NCBI GenBank assembly: GCA_020722375.1
Contig: DYKX01000011.1
Span: 1 to 32,233, forward strand
From: Anaerolinea thermophila
Lineage (GTDB): Bacteria > Chloroflexota > Anaerolineae > Anaerolineales > Villigracilaceae
Direction of reading: 5' to 3'
Length of the DNA stretch: 32,233 nt
The notes below the pieces were generated by a model, which was given only the letters and a program-made list of their open reading frames with translations, searched no databases and was not told the DNA's origin. Both the position numbers and the translations under genes were made by a program. Below, in pieces: positions 5,201-26,224 of this stretch (position 1 is its first letter; each line of letters starts with the position of its first letter).

Positions 5201-6480
5201 CAGGCAGCGTCGAATCCGTCCGTCCCTACACCACAAAGCAGGGCAAGCCGATGGGCTTCGTCACCATCGAAGACATCCAGGGCGTGATCGAACTGGTACT
5301 CTTCCCGAAAACGTGGGAAAAATTCCGACCCATCCTCACACAGGGCAAGATCGTTCTCGTGGAAGGCAAAGTAGACGCGACCAACACCCCGCCGAAGATT
5401 CTCGTGGACAACATCCGCACCGAATTTTCGATGACGGTCGCGGCAGAGGAGGCATCCCCCCATTTAGGGGGGACAGGAGGGGGGTTGAAGCCGCGTGACG
5501 CGTCCGATTCACCCCGACGCATCGAATCATTCCCGACGAAGAAAGCGGCCTCCGTCCAAAAAGCGACTCAGCCGCCCAAACCGACTCCGCCCCAACCCGC
5601 GCCCGCGCATGCCGTTACGGAACCGAAACCCGCGTACCCTGTAGGACAAATTGCCAATTTGTCCAATGCGGGGCAAATCAGCGATTTGCCCTACAGCGAC
5701 GATACGCCTCCTCCTCCCGAAAACTTCCCCGCGGGCTGGGAGGACGAGTGGCAGCCCTCGTTCGATCAGGCGATCGTTGCCGCGCGTCCCAAACCGACTC
5801 CGCCCCAACCCGCGCCCACGCGCGCCGTTACGGAACCGAAACCCGCGTACCCTGTAGGACAAATTGCCAATTTGTCCAATGCGGGGCAAATCAGCGATTT
5901 GCCCTACAGCGACGATACGCCTCCTCCTCCCGAAAACTTCCCCGCGGGCTGGGAGGACGAGTGGCAGCCCTCGTTCGATCAGGCGATCGTTGCCGCGCGT
6001 CCCCAGCCGAAACCGTCCAAAGCGGACGAACCCGTCACCCCGCCGCAGACGCTGGAGCCAGCCGCTGATGCGGAGATTCTGTCCGAGGAAACCGAGCCCG
6101 CTCCACGGTCAGGAAACGAAGCGGCAGTAGGACAAATTGCCAATTTGTCCCACACTCCCATCCCGCCTCCTGTCCTCCCCTCCCTCTACGTCCCCCTCGC
6201 AGAGACGGAAGACCGCGAGCATCCGCCGCAACAGATCACGATCATCCTGCGTCCCAGCCCCGACAGGGAAATTGACAAGCGCCGCATCAAGACGATCTAC
6301 GGGACGCTGATCTCGTATCACGGACGGGATCGATTCTCGTTCCAGATTTTCGAGAACGGCAAGGGACACCTGATTGACTTCCCCAACGACACCACGCGCC
6401 TCTGCCCCGAATTGCTGGCGCGCCTGCGGAAGGTGGTGGGCGGGGAGAGTTGGCGCATCGAGCCGATTTTGTTGCAGTAG
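2242..6480 (+). CDS. dnaE: DNA polymerase III subunit alpha
   Basis: 1412 aa; PHP start FAHLHVHTDYSLLDGFSNVKK, catalytic PDIDLDFRDDRR, IPIYQEQLMR, YGFNHSHAADYG, OB-fold region, then a repeat-filled linker and a conserved-looking C-terminus. Confidence 0.98.
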   Translation: MSFAHLHVHTDYSLLDGFSNVKKLTQRVKEMNMPAVAITDHGTMFGVIEFYNAAKAAGVKPIIGIEAYMAARTMQDRDSKLDRSSSHLLLLAENETGYRNLLKIASAAQLEGMYYYPRIDHDFLAAHSEGLIATSGCMAAEIPDAILHENPEEAVRRINWYYDVFGPDRFFLELQQHDIPEILELNRKLVELGARYSAKYVATNDVHYIEPDDYKYQDILLAIQTNTRLDDKERMRMSDSSYYLRTPEEMSRIFAEVPESLSNTLLIAERCNVDLGFKGYHLPEFPVPEGYTAQTYLRSLCDEGLGRRYGDRATSSQVRERLEYELGIIHKMGFDAYFLIVWDLCRHARETNIWYNARGSAAGSIVAYALDITLVDPLAHDLIFERFLNPGRNEMPDIDLDFRDDRRAEMLEYCAHKYGDDKVAQIITFGTMGTKAALRDVARVKGIELSAVDKVAKLVPFVSGRNTTMADAMAVPDFKKIYDTDPQMRELIDIAAKMEGTVRNAGTHAAGVVISDKPLTEYLPLHRPTSNSEETPIKTVTQFEMGILSSLGMLKVDFLGLITLTVMAKACDLINQRHGKSFNLGNIPLDDPKAYELMGAGNTAGLFQLEGGGMTRWIVQMKPRTVEHVIAMVALYRPGPMAFIPDYIARMHGEAEVEYRHESLRPIYESTYGIPIYQEQLMRAAIELGGYTPSESDELRSAISKKKADKIEKHRAKFIKGAVEKGMEQPVAEAIYGDWEEFARYGFNHSHAADYGVIAVETAFLKAHYPAEYMTALLSASKNQTEKVAYYVADARSMGIPVLPPDINASGWDFEIQDVESGPAIRFGLGAVKNVGEAAVNLIANARKEGGPFKDLNDLAARVDLRSVGKRALEFLIKVGAMDSFGNRAALLAGMDRLVAVSSAHFRAADAGQMSLFGAATGVVEQVHLPDVKDVDRREALNWERELVGMYISDHPLTPYQKTLAQLVSYFSAQLGEASHEERVRVAGSVESVRPYTTKQGKPMGFVTIEDIQGVIELVLFPKTWEKFRPILTQGKIVLVEGKVDATNTPPKILVDNIRTEFSMTVAAEEASPHLGGTGGGLKPRDASDSPRRIESFPTKKAASVQKATQPPKPTPPQPAPAHAVTEPKPAYPVGQIANLSNAGQISDLPYSDDTPPPPENFPAGWEDEWQPSFDQAIVAARPKPTPPQPAPTRAVTEPKPAYPVGQIANLSNAGQISDLPYSDDTPPPPENFPAGWEDEWQPSFDQAIVAARPQPKPSKADEPVTPPQTLEPAADAEILSEETEPAPRSGNEAAVGQIANLSHTPIPPPVLPSLYVPLAETEDREHPPQQITIILRPSPDREIDKRRIKTIYGTLISYHGRDRFSFQIFENGKGHLIDFPNDTTRLCPELLARLRKVVGGESWRIEPILLQ
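5456..5490. repeat. G/C-tract palindromic element inside dnaE (LGGTGGGLKPR-coding)
   Basis: CCCCCC ATTTA GGGGGG stem followed by ACAGGAGGGGGGTTGAAG. Confidence 0.6.
5641..5694. repeat. Twin-hairpin palindromic element (family A), copy 1
   Basis: GTAGGACAAATTGCCAATTTGTCCAATGCGGGGCAAATCAGCGATTTGCCCTAC; encodes VGQIANLSNAGQISDLPY in frame. Confidence 0.9.
5854..5907. repeat. Twin-hairpin palindromic element (family A), copy 2
   Basis: Same 54 bp as 5641-5694, within the second tandem copy. Confidence 0.9.
6127..6150. repeat. Single-hairpin family A half-element inside dnaE
   Basis: GTAGGACAAATTGCCAATTTGTCC; encodes VGQIANLS. Confidence 0.85.
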
Positions 6481-14688: not shown

Positions 14689-14727
14689 AGTTGCGAAATA
14701 GGAGATGGGGGATGCGGGTTAGAACGG

Positions 14728-14815
14728 GTACTTGTGTACGTGTGTACGTGTGTACTTGTGTACTTGTGTACGTGTTTACTTGTGTACTTGTTTACTTGTG
14801 TACCTGTGTACGTGT
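14728..14815. repeat. Octamer tandem array (11 units) upstream of the Wzz-like gene
   Basis: GTACTTGT/GTACGTGT/TTACTTGT variants in uninterrupted 8-bp register. Confidence 0.9.
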
Positions 14816-14829
14816 CTACGATCATTGAA

Positions 14830-15615
14830 TTATACGCCCAGCCTGCGCCTGAATCTCCAACTCCACAACGGCGCGATCAGTTTACGAATGTAGTATTTCG
14901 CCACGATGGGAGCGAAGAACGAGCCGCCATCGCGATAGTGGACGCGGATCATCTCCGGCCAGCAACGGTCATCGGCGGCGATGGTCTTACCCGATGTGTG
15001 GATGCGGAAATTCGCCCACGTCTGCCCCGCGAGATATTTCAATTCAGAACGCGCGGCGATGCGCGTCCACAGGTCGTAGTCCATCGCGAAATAAAAGGAC
15101 GGGTCGAGAGGCCCGACCTGTTTCCACAGCTCGGCGCGGAAGAACATCGTCTGCTGCGGGATGTGGACGTAGCCGCGGCGCAGTCGCGCCAGGTCGGTCT
15201 GGGCGGCGGGGAACTTGCCGATGACGCGTCCCTCCTCGTTGATGTAATTGCAATCCGCGTAGACCATCCCCACTTCACGATGCTCCAGCAAATATTTCAC
15301 GGCCTGTCCAACGGCGCGCGGCTCGTAGGTATCGTCCGAGTTCAGCCACGCGAGAATCTGTCCCGACGCACGCGCGAAGCCTTTGTTGATGGCGTCGGTC
15401 TGGCCGCGGTCTTTTTCGCTCACCCACCAGGCGAGTTGGTCGGCGTATTTTTGGATCACATCCACCGAGCCATCGGTCGAGCCGCCGTCCACGATAATGG
15501 TTTCGATGCGCGGATAATCCTGCGACAACACAGACTGAATCGTCGCTTCCAAATATCGCGCCTGGTTGAACGACGGCGTCACGATCGAAACGGTGGGCAG
15601 GGCAACAGGTCTCAT
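14830..15615 (-). CDS. Glycosyltransferase family 2
   Basis: 261 aa; VSIVTPSFNQARYLEATIQSVLSQDYPRIETIIVDGGSTDGS, AWLNSDD. Confidence 0.95.
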   Translation of the reverse strand: MRPVALPTVSIVTPSFNQARYLEATIQSVLSQDYPRIETIIVDGGSTDGSVDVIQKYADQLAWWVSEKDRGQTDAINKGFARASGQILAWLNSDDTYEPRAVGQAVKYLLEHREVGMVYADCNYINEEGRVIGKFPAAQTDLARLRRGYVHIPQQTMFFRAELWKQVGPLDPSFYFAMDYDLWTRIAARSELKYLAGQTWANFRIHTSGKTIAADDRCWPEMIRVHYRDGGSFFAPIVAKYYIRKLIAPLWSWRFRRRLGV

Positions 15616-16626: not shown

Positions 16627-18201
16627 TTACGGGCTTTCCTGCGACGCGGAGATGGTATCCACATCGTAGTAGATGGCCGCGCAGTAGTTGATCCAGTGAC
16701 CAGGGCGCGCATCGAGATCGTTGACGTTGGCAATACCTGACAACTCCCAGGTGACGATGTCCTTCTCGCCCGAGGCGGCCAGTTCGCGGATGCGCGCGTC
16801 GCGGGAATCCCACTGGGCGGCACGGGTTCGATAGGCAGGGATGAGCGGCAGGTTGTTGCGGATCGTCCACAGCGGGTAGAGCGCGGTGACCAACAACGCA
16901 ATGACAGCCAGAGTCGTCGTCCAACGCGGCACACTTCGCGAAAGACGCGTCGCCCACAGTCCGAGTAACCCGCCCTCGGTCAGGAGGGACGCGGCGAGCA
17001 GGACGTGCGCGGGAAAGCGGACGCGGTCCACGGGGAAGGATTGTCCGTAGGCGCTGGGAGCAAACGCGGCGACGATCAGGAGATAGGTCAGGAGCGGAAT
17101 GAGGAACAGTCCCAGCCAGGCGCGGCGAGGCAGGGAAATGTCTGCCGCTTTGGAATAGAGATAGGCGATCAGACCGCCAGAAACAAAGGTGAAGCCGAGC
17201 GGAATCTTGAGCAGGCGGGCGGACTCGGCGAAGAAGAGCGCCGCGTAGTTGAACGAGCGCAGGATGACATCCAGCAGGGACGGCGGCTCCGCGCCTTGGA
17301 TGCGGATGGCGTTGGCGGGCGTGATGAACATGCCGATCATGGCGAGCAGGGCGCCCGCGAGCGTGGCAGTGATGAGTACGAGCGCGGCGCGGCGGGTGGG
17401 GGTTTTGTTCCAGAGAAAATTGACAACCAGCGCCAGGCCAAGGATGGAAATGTGCAACGCGCCCGTGGTCTCGGAGAGTCCGCCCGCGAAGAACGCGCCG
17501 AAGAAGAGGAGGGTGATGGTTATGCTGGTCTCGATATGCCACTTTGTGGTTACTCGACCAGCGGCGAGACGAGACACACGCAAGATCCCCGCGAAGAGGA
17601 AGGAGTAGATGACGAGCGGGAGAAAATAGGTCATCAGCCCTGGCCGCCATTGCACAGATTGGAACAGATTGGGCGCGGTGTAATAGGAAATCAACGCGAC
17701 AATTTCTGCCAGCAGGAAACCTGTCCAAAAATCCCAGCGGATTTTGAGGAGGCGCGCCGCTTCGTAGAGCATCCACGTCAGCCCCGCGAGCCAAAGCAGG
17801 AGGGACGTCACCGCCAGCAGAGCCACGCCGCGCGGCCCGAACAGGTCGGTGAGCCACGCCACCATTTCGTTGGAGAAGCGGTTGGACGTGTACCAGTATT
17901 TGATGAGGCTGGCCGTCAATGGATCGTAGCCGATCAGCCGCGCCGAGATGCAGTAGTCATCGCCAATGGGACGGATGAACGCGGCGAGGTAGGCGTAGAG
18001 TGAAAGCGCCGCGGCAGATGTGATGGCGAAGAGTCTGGTGGGGAGGGATTTGAGCAAGGGAAAATCCGAGATGCGAGTTAGGAATAGGTATTGCGTATTG
18101 CGTGTTGTGTATTGCGTGTTGCGTATTGCGTAGTGTGTGAGGGCAAAAATATCAGCGATGAGTTTGCAGATCGTAAATGATGTAGCCATCGCCTTCTGCA
18201 A
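16627..18201 (-). CDS. Multi-TM membrane protein, DUF6056-like putative glycosyltransferase
   Basis: Up to 524 aa; FIRPIGDDYCISARLIGYDPLTASLIKYWYTSNRFSNEMVAWL. The start is uncertain: the long form overlaps the upstream gene by 50 bp and reads through a heptamer array. Confidence 0.65.
   Translation of the reverse strand: MQKAMATSFTICKLIADIFALTHYAIRNTQYTTRNTQYLFLTRISDFPLLKSLPTRLFAITSAAALSLYAYLAAFIRPIGDDYCISARLIGYDPLTASLIKYWYTSNRFSNEMVAWLTDLFGPRGVALLAVTSLLLWLAGLTWMLYEAARLLKIRWDFWTGFLLAEIVALISYYTAPNLFQSVQWRPGLMTYFLPLVIYSFLFAGILRVSRLAAGRVTTKWHIETSITITLLFFGAFFAGGLSETTGALHISILGLALVVNFLWNKTPTRRAALVLITATLAGALLAMIGMFITPANAIRIQGAEPPSLLDVILRSFNYAALFFAESARLLKIPLGFTFVSGGLIAYLYSKAADISLPRRAWLGLFLIPLLTYLLIVAAFAPSAYGQSFPVDRVRFPAHVLLAASLLTEGGLLGLWATRLSRSVPRWTTTLAVIALLVTALYPLWTIRNNLPLIPAYRTRAAQWDSRDARIRELAASGEKDIVTWELSGIANVNDLDARPGHWINYCAAIYYDVDTISASQESP
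18090..18138. repeat. Heptamer tandem array (7 units)
   Basis: ATTGCGT ATTGCGT GTTGTGT ATTGCGT GTTGCGT ATTGCGT AGTGTGT. Confidence 0.9.
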
Positions 18202-19768
18202 ATATCGCGAAGCGCGAGAGACGTTCTTGCAGGTCGGGCTGGCGTTTCAGGTCGGCGAGGTCGGTGACGAGGAAGAGGTCTTTGTTCTTGGTCAGGCGGT
18301 CGAAATATTTTTCAACGGTCTGTCCACCGCCGCGCAGGGCATGATACTCCCTATCGGATGAATCAGGCCAGTTGGCGGCGCCCGTCCAACCCCAGTAGGC
18401 GAGCGGGAGGGCGTACTCCTGCGTCAACGCGACGACGCGGTGACCACGCACGGTCTCGCCGATTTGATTCCAGAACGCGGCTTGTGGACGGTAGTCCACG
18501 GATTTGAGGGCGGCGCGGGAGGTCCAGAGCGCGGCGAGGAGGCAGAGGGTCAGGATGGAGGCGGCGAAGATTTTGTAGCGCAAATTGGCAATTTGCGTTA
18601 CAAGCGCGTCCGCGAGCGGAGTCAACGCGAGCGCGGCGATGGGGACGAGCGGCAGGCTGTAGTAGTCGTGGGTGGAGATGTGATAGTCGAAGAAAATGCC
18701 GAAGGCGAAGTACGCGGCCCAAAGTCCGAGCAGGAACGTGCGCGTGGGTTTGGAGTCCACGAGCAGGAGGCCGAGGAGGGCAAGCGCGAAGGGGAAGAGT
18801 CCGAGGACGTTGTCGAGCATCCCCGCCCAGCCGAGATAAAAATTGGGCGAGAGGAAAAGTTCGGGCATGAAGCGTCCGCCGAATTGCTGACCGAGGAAGC
18901 CGCGCGACAGTCCATAGACCACCCAGCCGAGGCCAGGCAGGATTCCAAGCGCGGCCATGATCCACACCTGCTTGTTGCGGAGAATGTCGCGAACGGATGC
19001 GCGTCCGAGGGTGGCGCCGAGCGCGCCGCCGATGACGAAGAAGGCCGCGTTCAGTTTGATGAAGATGGCGAGGCCGCCGAGGAGGGAGGCGAGGAGGACG
19101 TAGAGCCAGAAGAATGTTGCGTGTTGCGTGTTGCGTATTGCGTATTGCGTAATGGGTCGCGAGGTAGGGGTGAGGGAGTGCGACCAGCGGTTGACTGCCC
19201 ACCAGAAGGCTACGAGGAGCGCGGCCATGAGGGGATCGGGTTGGAAAGAGCGGCTGGCGATGACGGCGTAGGGGAGCAGGAGGTAAAAGGCCGCGGTGAA
19301 GAGCGCGGCGTCGGTCGGTACACGGATTACACGGATTGGACGGATTTCACGAATTTCTTTTTTATTTTCTTCTTTGGAATCTGCATTTCCAAAAAGATCG
19401 CGGGCGAGGAGATAGAGGAAGATGCCGCCAATCAACCAAAAGAGACTGGAGTAGATGCGCGCCACCCAGAGTTGTTCGCCTGTGAATTTCCACGTGAAGA
19501 CAGTGAGTTTTTCGAGAATTTCCGGTTCGATGGTGGCGCGCAGTTTTCCCTGCTGGATCGCAAACTCGCGTTGCTGTGCGGGCGCGTCCGTGAGAGTCTC
19601 GTAGTACATGCCGCGTGCCTTGAGTGCGGAGAAGAGTTGCCGCGTGGGATGAAAATCCAGCGGCAGGTCGGTCAGGTCGTAGAGACGGATGCCAAGAGCC
19701 GCGATGAAAATGACGAGGAGCGCGAGGGTGTGGTAACGGCCAAAGAGGGAGCGAGGGGATTCGTCCAT
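18152..19768 (-). CDS. GT39/ArnT-like multi-TM glycosyltransferase (paralog A)
   Basis: 538 aa; IRLYDLTDLPLDFHPTRQLFSALKARGMYYE, SRSFQPDPLM; aligns along most of its length with the 21009-22517 product. Confidence 0.85.
   Translation of the reverse strand: MDESPRSLFGRYHTLALLVIFIAALGIRLYDLTDLPLDFHPTRQLFSALKARGMYYETLTDAPAQQREFAIQQGKLRATIEPEILEKLTVFTWKFTGEQLWVARIYSSLFWLIGGIFLYLLARDLFGNADSKEENKKEIREIRPIRVIRVPTDAALFTAAFYLLLPYAVIASRSFQPDPLMAALLVAFWWAVNRWSHSLTPTSRPITQYAIRNTQHATFFWLYVLLASLLGGLAIFIKLNAAFFVIGGALGATLGRASVRDILRNKQVWIMAALGILPGLGWVVYGLSRGFLGQQFGGRFMPELFLSPNFYLGWAGMLDNVLGLFPFALALLGLLLVDSKPTRTFLLGLWAAYFAFGIFFDYHISTHDYYSLPLVPIAALALTPLADALVTQIANLRYKIFAASILTLCLLAALWTSRAALKSVDYRPQAAFWNQIGETVRGHRVVALTQEYALPLAYWGWTGAANWPDSSDREYHALRGGGQTVEKYFDRLTKNKDLFLVTDLADLKRQPDLQERLSRFAIFAEGDGYIIYDLQTHR
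18575..18601. repeat. Family A-like hairpin inside GT39-A
   Basis: GTAGCGCAAATTGGCAATTTGCGTTAC; encodes VTQIANLRYK. Confidence 0.85.
19116..19157. repeat. Heptamer array inside GT39-A (5 clear units plus 1 degenerate = 42 bp)
   Basis: GTTGCGT x3, ATTGCGT x2, AATGGGT. Confidence 0.88.
19319..19353. repeat. CACGGATT-type repeat inside GT39-A
   Basis: TACACGGATTACACGGATTGGACGGATTTCACGAA; encodes the EIRPIRVIRV stretch. Confidence 0.85.
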
Positions 19769-20790: not shown

Positions 20791-20792
20791 TT

Positions 20793-20827
20793 AGTAATCA
20801 GTGATCAGTAATCAGTAATCAGTTATC
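20793..20827. repeat. Heptamer array (5 units) directly upstream of the GT2 start
   Basis: AGTAATC AGTGATC AGTAATC AGTAATC AGTTATC. Confidence 0.85.
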
Positions 20828-20857
20828 AGTTTGGGTGAGGATCGGTCGAAGACCTTT

Positions 20858-22521: not shown

Positions 22522-22615
22522 ATCGAAGGTTGAAAGTCGAAGGTCAGTTACGAGTTACAGGTTACAAGTTACAGGTTACGGACGTGTCTACGTGTGTACT
22601 TGTTTACTTGTCTAC
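22522..22615. repeat. Mosaic intergenic tandem repeats: two heptamer families and one octamer family
   Basis: GATCGAAGGTTGAAAGTCGAAGGT; CAGTTAC GAGTTAC AGGTTAC AAGTTAC AGGTTAC (22545-22579); GTCTACGTGTGTACTTGTTTACTTGTCTACG. Confidence 0.8.
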
Positions 22616-22616
22616 G

Positions 22617-23534
22617 TTATCCGAAGAGAGAATTGTAGTCTACCTTCTTGAATATTGTTAACTTCCCGCCGACCGTCGCGTCCAAAACTTCGCGTCCTGC
22701 GGATTCGTAGGTCTGGCGGGCGAGGCGATAGCCGATCTCGGAGGTGTCGAGGTCGGGGAGTTGCCAGCGGAAGCCTTTGCCGAAGTAAGCGGCGGAGAAG
22801 TGGTTGGGATCGTCGCCGTCGGAGACGACGGTTTTGTTGGCGTCGCCTTTCGCGGAGCGGGCGAAGTTGTGGTCCACGCCGATGAGGATGACCTGCTGAA
22901 ATCCCATGTGGAAGGCGAGTTGGAGCGCGACGTTGGTGACGGTGGCGCCTTCCCAGACGCGGCCGCGGACGTCGGTGGAAAATTTGGGTCCCGTGTAAGA
23001 GGTGTAGAGGAAGGTTGGTAATTGGTAATTGGTAACTGGTAACTGATCACTGAGCACTGGCGACTGATCACTGATGACTGATAACTGATCACTGATGACT
23101 GATAACTGATCACTGATCACTGATGACTGATGACTAGCAAAGTGGCGATGCGCGCGCCACGCAATGTATTTTGGAATTTCGAGGGCGGCCATTTCGGAGG
23201 CGCACTGTTCGATGACGAGGTCGTTGATGGAGACGAGGCAGGATGTGGTGAAGCCGAGTTCGGGAAACATCAGGTAGATGCGATTCATCCCGAAGGTGAA
23301 TTCGTTCTTGAGTTTGGTGAGGTCGGTCTGCTTGAGGGAGGGTCCGTTACCGATGATGAAGGCGCGCTGACCTTTGTGCGCGTCCTTGAGCGCGGCGAGG
23401 CGACGGATGCTCTCGCGCCGCCACGGATGCAGGTATGCGGCGGGGAGTTGAGGAGCGCGGCGAAGCGCGTCGTAGGTGTTTTTGACGGTTTGGAGGAGGG
23501 AGGAGGGGAGGAGAGTGGTGAGGGTTTGTTTCAT
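22617..23534 (-). CDS. DUF115/MptE-like (6-hydroxymethylpterin pyrophosphokinase MptE-like fold) protein
   Basis: 305 aa; GQRAFIIGNGPSLKQTDLTKLKNEFTFGMNRIYLMF, VALQLAFHMGFQQVILIGVDHNF. Confidence 0.8.
   Translation of the reverse strand: MKQTLTTLLPSSLLQTVKNTYDALRRAPQLPAAYLHPWRRESIRRLAALKDAHKGQRAFIIGNGPSLKQTDLTKLKNEFTFGMNRIYLMFPELGFTTSCLVSINDLVIEQCASEMAALEIPKYIAWRAHRHFASHQSSVISDQLSVISDQLSVISDQSPVLSDQLPVTNYQLPTFLYTSYTGPKFSTDVRGRVWEGATVTNVALQLAFHMGFQQVILIGVDHNFARSAKGDANKTVVSDGDDPNHFSAAYFGKGFRWQLPDLDTSEIGYRLARQTYESAGREVLDATVGGKLTIFKKVDYNSLFG
23015..23140. repeat. Long in-frame heptamer array within the DUF115-like CDS (17 clear units plus 1 degenerate = 126 bp)
   Basis: TTGGTAA x3, CTGGTAA, then CTGATCA/CTGATGA/CTGATAA variants in uninterrupted 7-bp register to 23133, ending CTAGCAA. 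Confidence 0.95.
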
Positions 23535-25632: not shown

Positions 25633-26224
25633 TTTTTGGACACGGATCACACGGATTTCACGGATTAGGATTTTTTGATGGATTCTTTTTGAGGAGGCTT
25701 TGTCCAGGACAGGGAGCCTTTACGGGCGTTGTCGTAAACGCCGCGACGGAATTTGGGTTCGGGGCCAAAATTGAGCACGTAACCGACCTCAATTTCAGTT
25801 GCCTTGAGGTAATGGAGAAGTTGCGACATGTGCGCGTCAATGATTTCAGAAACCGATTTGAGTTCGAGCAAAACAAGACCATTGACAATCAGGTCGGCAG
25901 TATAAACCCCAACCACCTGGCCGTGATAGTAGACAAAGATATCCTTTTGCCTCTCAACGAAAAAGCCCATCTCCTTGAGCAAAATTTCCAGCGCGGCTTC
26001 ATAAATCTTTTCCGAGAAGCCATAACCCAATTCGTTATAAACCTGATAGAACGCTGCGATAATTTTATCGGTTATATCCGAATGCTTTCCATCAAACTTT
26101 CCTCTCAAATTCATTTTGCTCCTCCATCAACCAAAAAAGAATGGAATCCGTGTTTTCCGTGAAATCCGTGTCCAAAAAAAGAATCGAATCCGTGTCATCC
26201 GCCGAAGGATCCGTGTCCAAAAAA
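25633..26224. mobile_element. Putative CACGGATT inverted-repeat unit carrying a GxxExxY gene
   Basis: Left TTTTTGGACACGGATCACACGGATTTCACGGATT (25633-25666); inverted right copy AATCCGTGTTTTCCGTGAAATCCGTGTCCAAAAAAA (26145-26180) and a second right copy (26186-26224). Confidence 0.55.
25665..26114 (-). CDS. GxxExxY protein (PDDEXK-like family)
   Basis: 149 aa; VYNELGYGFSEKIYEAAL (GxxExxY motif), VYTADLIVNGLVLLELKSVSEI (D...E-x-K). Confidence 0.92.
   Translation of the reverse strand: MNLRGKFDGKHSDITDKIIAAFYQVYNELGYGFSEKIYEAALEILLKEMGFFVERQKDIFVYYHGQVVGVYTADLIVNGLVLLELKSVSEIIDAHMSQLLHYLKATEIEVGYVLNFGPEPKFRRGVYDNARKGSLSWTKPPQKESIKKS

Follow-up and report, generated by a model that had tools for sequence, protein, structure and literature searches.

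Inverted nonamer arrays bracketing GxxExxY genes: a probable REPIN-like/MITE-like mobile unit whose sole gene encodes a predicted RecB/Cas4-like nuclease

The window, that is, the whole 32,233-nucleotide stretch of Anaerolinea thermophila DNA analyzed here, contains a compact element in which a single small gene is bracketed by inverted arrays of nonamers. Its parts, together with two further copies of the repeat in the window, are as follows:

25633..26224, no strand assigned: the whole GxxExxY element, between the SDR gene start and the 2-hydroxyacid dehydrogenase stop codon
25633..25666, plus strand: left arm, TTTTTGGA and three inward nonamers, CACGGATCA CACGGATTT CACGGATT (inverted repeat I9)
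25665..26114, minus strand: GxxExxY / PDDEXK_3 gene, 149 aa (Pfam, NCBIfam)
26145..26178, minus strand: right arm, copy 1, AATCCGTG TTTTCCGTG AAATCCGTG TCCAAAAA
26187..26224, minus strand: right arm, copy 2, terminating in ATCCGTGTCCAAAAAA
1856..1939, no strand assigned: gene-less hairpin of the same repeat family, GCCACGGATTACACAGATT...AATCTGTGGC
19320..19364, plus strand: half-element with one arm, in frame within the GT39-A gene; right limit approximate

The arms at 25633-25666 and 26145-26178 constitute a 34-nt inverted repeat that is 85% complementary with a spacing of 478 nt; they are inverted, yet the exact ends of the element are uncertain, and no target-site duplication (TSD) was found at it. 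The window has 12 occurrences of the unit CACGGATT where 1.44 are expected, a count reached in none of 100 shuffles. A preliminary description of this DNA had reported a GxxExxY gene bracketed by inverted CACGGATT repeats at 25633-26224, with the left repeat running into the gene's stop codon. Both observations hold: arms, gene and copies lie where it placed them, and the stop codon (25665-25667) overlaps the last left-arm unit. The two other copies, given as gene-less repeats at 1855 and 19319, do lack the gene. The former had been labeled degenerate, whereas it is a complete hairpin; the latter does lie inside GT39-A, where it is read in frame, and is better delimited as a half-element from 19320 with units in a single orientation only. 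At the position of this half-element, the paralogue GT39-B is about 22 residues shorter.

The encoded protein belongs to a family annotated in many phyla without a known function, for which the link to the repeat offers a testable role. It matches TIGR04256 (GxxExxY; E=8.7e-35, 125.9 bits with a cut-off of 22) and PF13366 (E=1.3e-36, 119.6 bits with a cut-off of 35), and has intact D74, E84-x-K86 and Q98xxxY102, of which D74, E84, K86, Q98 and Y102 are invariant across 30 aligned proteins. The best Foldseek matches of its AF2 model (pLDDT 87.7) are the Cas4-like SSO0001, lambda exonuclease and the Hjc resolvases, at modest TM-scores; by motif and modeled core fold, it is predicted to be a PD-(D/E)XK nuclease of the RecB/Cas4/lambda-exonuclease type. 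Hence, given the predicted RecB/Cas4/Hjc-like fold, it is plausible that GxxExxY is a nuclease with hairpin or cruciform DNA as its substrate. Among related copies dN/dS is mostly 0.03-0.13, with one pair at 0.33, and is 0.08 between the window copy and the C90 copy; thus, the gene is under purifying selection.

In the genome of the window's organism, the two-unit pattern has 114 matches as against 5 for the reversed control. Most of these array copies are hairpins of ~70-150 bp without a gene, with end pairs such as GTACACGG/CCGTGTAC or TTAGCCACGG/CCGTGGCTAA. The element accounts for a common class of intergenic repeats of the CACGGATT/CACAGAG type. This genome has four PF13366 genes, three of which have the same inward arrays on both sides; no such arms were seen at the remaining one, close to a contig edge.

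Other repeats are also found in the window: heptamer arrays of the ACTGATN type, a second repeat class (2207-2239, 20792-20831 and 23002-23149); period-8 arrays (TGTGTACT/TGTGTACG), a third class (14705-14836 and 22565-22624); period-7 TTGCGTA arrays at 18077-18157, beside or overlapping a gene end, and at 19103-19169; and a 213-bp tandem duplication, 99% identical and with GGACAAATTGCCAATTTGTCC palindromes, at 5575-6000.

The association of the gene with inverted arms extends well beyond this genome. In a motif-free test on the 250-bp flanks of GxxExxY genes, with an ungapped inverted repeat score of at least 12, an inverted repeat spans the gene at 163 of 219 loci as opposed to 23 of 400 mispaired flanks; in a first named set of loci across phyla, scored at 14 or more, the figures were 44/78 versus 3/524 for displaced windows of the same spacing elsewhere within the same loci. 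Both arrays point inward at 105 loci; at 10 loci both point outward. Organisms with bracketed genes include Chloroflexi, Bacteroidota, Planctomycetes, Cloacimonadota and one archaeon of the Methanoperedenaceae; further searches gave 8 plasmid records and 3 IMG/VR contigs, and no match in phages. Selection of array loci solely by pattern gave 49 pairs that were hairpins and three with a plausible bracketed gene, in each case GxxExxY. Thus, the enrichment of flanking repeats foreseen in the preliminary description is found at GxxExxY loci elsewhere, and the repeat-gene association is correct; as worded, however, it covered too little, since repeats other than CACGGATT serve as well. The nonamer is particular to each GxxExxY lineage, for example CACGGATTT, CGCAGATGA, CACGAATGA, CACAGAGAC, CACAAAGAC or CGCTGAGGA, mainly of the types CRCDRAT-NN or CRCDRAG-NN, and a universal CACGGATT motif was accordingly rejected.

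This variation follows the protein. G-ending units accompany GxGL proteins in 38 of 39 typed loci, and T-ending units accompany GxGF proteins in 97 of 106; eight of the nine GxGF exceptions form one subfamily and the ninth (L454) lies elsewhere. Mapped on a 150-protein tree, unit type changes 4 times, whereas shuffled labels need 41.5 changes on average and none of 500 shuffles is as low. Co-variation of unit and protein is by itself no proof of recognition, since shared descent alone suffices for such a match if gene and arms travel together, as is claimed here. Across 151 genomes of the window organism's order, three-unit matches, which are pattern matches that count a long array more than once, average 36.0 (median 18.5) in gene-bearing genomes and 2.9 (median 0) in those without GxxExxY (p=1.2e-12), in keeping with the expectation that the repeats are commoner where GxxExxY is present; their number correlates with GxxExxY gene number (Spearman 0.71). 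The difference persists within taxonomic families (permutation p=0.001; residual correlation 0.42). There are exceptions on both sides: in 24 of 92 gene-bearing genomes the array matches number at most two, and five genomes without the gene have at least 10. A crude split of the 151 genomes does not resolve a two-way specificity of unit and protein, because many genomes with G-type arrays are without the GLLESAY protein type; this is partly accounted for by the GF-type subfamily bearing G-type units.

Empty sites, which the preliminary description had proposed to look for, were found at orthologous positions in related genomes. G071, a genome of the same genus, also has the element at the window site, with an apparently frameshifted gene; in others the orthologous intergenic region measures only 32 bp (G118 and G011), 42 bp (G165), 63 bp (G079) or 76 bp (G159). 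The C75 site holds a GxxExxY element in the window's genome, CACAAAG-type hairpins in G151, G153, G160 and G178, heptamer/octamer arrays in G071 and G062, and nothing in G158 and G095; such intergenic spots are repeatedly hit by different palindromic repeats. The array filling this spot in G071 (L337) is similar to the window's period-8 class. In G062, a heptamer-bracketed 136-aa ORF (L340, G062:C32:54350-55550) occupies a spot that carries GxxExxY in the window's genome; its only match is a weak, restriction-endonuclease-like one (Mrr_cat_2, E=0.04).

One interpretation of these sites would be homing or drive, with GxxExxY cutting nonamer sites and spreading by break repair from an element-bearing copy, so that new copies arise mainly at or beside existing palindromes. 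The nuclease fold is consistent with this, as is the finding that one and the same spot can hold different palindromic repeats in different genomes: at C75 these are CACAAAG hairpins, 7/8-mer arrays or the GxxExxY element. However, the empty sites in G158, G011 and G118 are devoid of any repeat, and TSDs occur at unique sites (see below); we accordingly consider homing improbable. Still less probable, and disfavored here, is the view that the arrays serve the host in regulation or RNA processing, for example as terminators or RNase III stems, with GxxExxY an incidental host gene. It could draw on the location of arrays between co-oriented genes and on the precedent of intervening sequences (IVSs), with RNA processing by RNase III (PMC4990558). 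Against it stand the presence and absence of arrays at orthologous sites, the multi-copy bursts with unique flanks described next and the fact that the same gene bears different units in step with phylogeny; a terminator function in particular was rejected, as the T-runs are on the wrong side.

The clearest view of the element's ends comes from G046. A single GxxExxY element is there in more than 20 copies, which have unique flanks and sharply defined ends (GTATYTGTTTACC), and its terminus GTAT[CT]TGTTTACC is present in 74 copies. Full-length copies of 449/450 bp run from terminal inverted repeat (TIR) through three nonamers, the ORF and three more nonamers to the second TIR, and derivatives range from 99 to 537 bp, among them forms of 307, 249, 187 and 99 bp, the 99-bp form being a gene-less hairpin that retains both ends. 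Solo ends adjoin host genes. Exact 8-bp TSDs flank two copies (GGCACATT and GAAATGAG), a third copy matches at 7/8, and the L473 insertion is missing from two congeners. All the complete copies that were read are damaged, by a frameshift or by loss of the E-x-K stretch, and were therefore moved in trans; no intact driver copy was seen in this 59%-complete genome. Neither was any element with these TIRs (74 termini) longer than 537 bp or any transposase seen there. A related MITE-like hairpin family of ~200 bp in G072 (L561-L580) has the TIR GTAACTATTCAGCC with nonamer arrays nested inside, and 13 of 16 copies show 8-bp TSDs, 8 of them exact. Over 148 other GxxExxY loci no TSD enrichment was found, and TSDs are unsupported as a general hallmark of these elements. 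Either the duplications have decayed, or the outer GTA ends with their TSDs stem from another transposition system, of a conventional kind; our interpretation is least certain on this point.

Some further features of these genomes deserve mention. At L475 (G046:C46) the element terminus directly follows the T-run of a rho-independent-like terminator, and the hairpins C147 and C64 are nested in larger palindromes, a hint that DNA rich in hairpins may be preferred. The right flank of L480 (query 1292-1344) is another multi-copy G046 sequence of ~53 bp, unrelated to the GxxExxY termini, that occurs at many contig ends.

A rival account is that the unit is an ordinary MITE-like one, moved in trans by a DDE (e.g., IS66-type) or HUH transposase encoded elsewhere. 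GxxExxY would then be a passenger and might gain from the spread by shielding, resolving or trimming the palindrome as it is replicated. The TIRs with initial GTA and the 8-bp TSDs of G046 and G072 are such as an ordinary DDE transposase would leave, defective copies have moved in G046, some genomes without the gene contain hairpins, and we know of no lone PD-(D/E)XK nuclease that transposes DNA. Nevertheless, the search for a larger element with the TIRs of G046 found none, GxxExxY was the only plausible gene seen between the arrays, the unit type changes together with the GxxExxY protein from phylum to phylum, and gene and arrays remain associated within families. On balance we regard a transposase in trans as rather unlikely, even though we would give only even chances to GxxExxY itself being the driver.

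That the element is mobile, with its own gene and derivatives, we consider highly probable. Gene and arrays form a single evolutionary unit, which inserts between genes, often next to a stop codon, and internal deletions yield hairpins without the gene, which spread through the same genomes in the manner of MITEs and REPINs. We therefore read the element as a REPIN-like/MITE-like mobile unit whose sole gene encodes a RecB/Cas4-like predicted nuclease. The explanation that we favor overall, if by no wide measure of confidence, is a minimal mobile palindromic element with a PD-(D/E)XK protein that processes its own nonamer hairpin. Here, the protein would recognize its own nonamer and, as its RecB/Cas4/Hjc-like fold suggests, cut or process the hairpin or cruciform once it is extruded; the element, thus released, would then join a staggered break at a new site, with an 8-bp duplication where visible, possibly aided by host repair or replication, and defective copies would be served in trans. 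Should the nuclease indeed move the element, this would be a transposition chemistry outside those of the DDE, HUH, serine and tyrosine enzymes.

No description of the nonamer repeat or of GxxExxY function was found in the open-access literature searched, and the novelty is thus relative to that literature. Among known systems, we file the element with the palindromic mobile elements, as a member of neither REPIN/RAYT, IS/MITE nor IVS. IS elements with MITE derivatives, such as those with IS66-type ends, have TIRs, 8-bp TSDs and internal-deletion derivatives mobilized in trans. The G046 and G072 families likewise have TIRs with defined ends, and 8-bp TSDs at some of their copies, and internal-deletion derivatives occur here too; no DDE transposase was seen among the 74 termini of the 59%-complete G046, and an autonomous GxxExxY form would be ~450-590 bp with a nuclease only. 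The closest system in behavior is REPIN/RAYT, in which REP doublets occur as hairpins together with a Y1 HUH transposase, RAYT (PMC3116915, PMC2817692). Both have dispersed, multi-copy intergenic palindromes, inverted hairpin doublets whose occurrence correlates with one small gene bracketed by inverted copies, and non-autonomous hairpins that outnumber the gene copies. Unlike RAYT, the gene of GxxExxY elements encodes a predicted PD-(D/E)XK nuclease rather than a Y1/HUH tyrosine transposase, the window protein matching PF13366 only; moreover, the arms are tandem nonamers, and the bursts show TIRs with 8-bp TSDs. The TAACTGA heptamer arrays of Beggiatoaceae, read as possibly regulatory (PMC4679880), are also abundant, intergenic and made of tandem short units, but have a period of 7, and neither inverted pairing nor any encoded protein is connected with them.

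Finally, the IVS in the 23S rRNA of Coxiella consists of one S23 ORF in terminal inverted repeats, adjoined by tandem heptamers GACAGAT, and has been called selfish (PMC4990558). It shares with the GxxExxY elements the layout of a single small ORF within terminal inverted repeats; it differs in that S23 is an unrelated four-helix bundle, the period is 7 rather than 9 and all known cases are located within rRNA, whereas the window ORF is PF13366 with protein genes as neighbors. Unexpectedly, S23 (PF05635) genes sampled genome-wide (L267-L296) have the same layout as GxxExxY with heptamers, inverted heptamer arrays being present at 24 of 30 loci versus 1 of 56 control windows (score of at least 12). 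On this parallel, the IVSs of rRNA would belong to a wider group of selfish DNA elements. It is tempting, though we advance this more tentatively than the processing of its own hairpin, to see GxxExxY elements as a distinct autonomous class, in which a lone RecB/Cas4-like nuclease with lineage-specific nonamers may mobilize itself and its hairpins, and as one of several parallel classes combining short-array palindromes with a small ORF, period 9 with GxxExxY and period 7 with S23.
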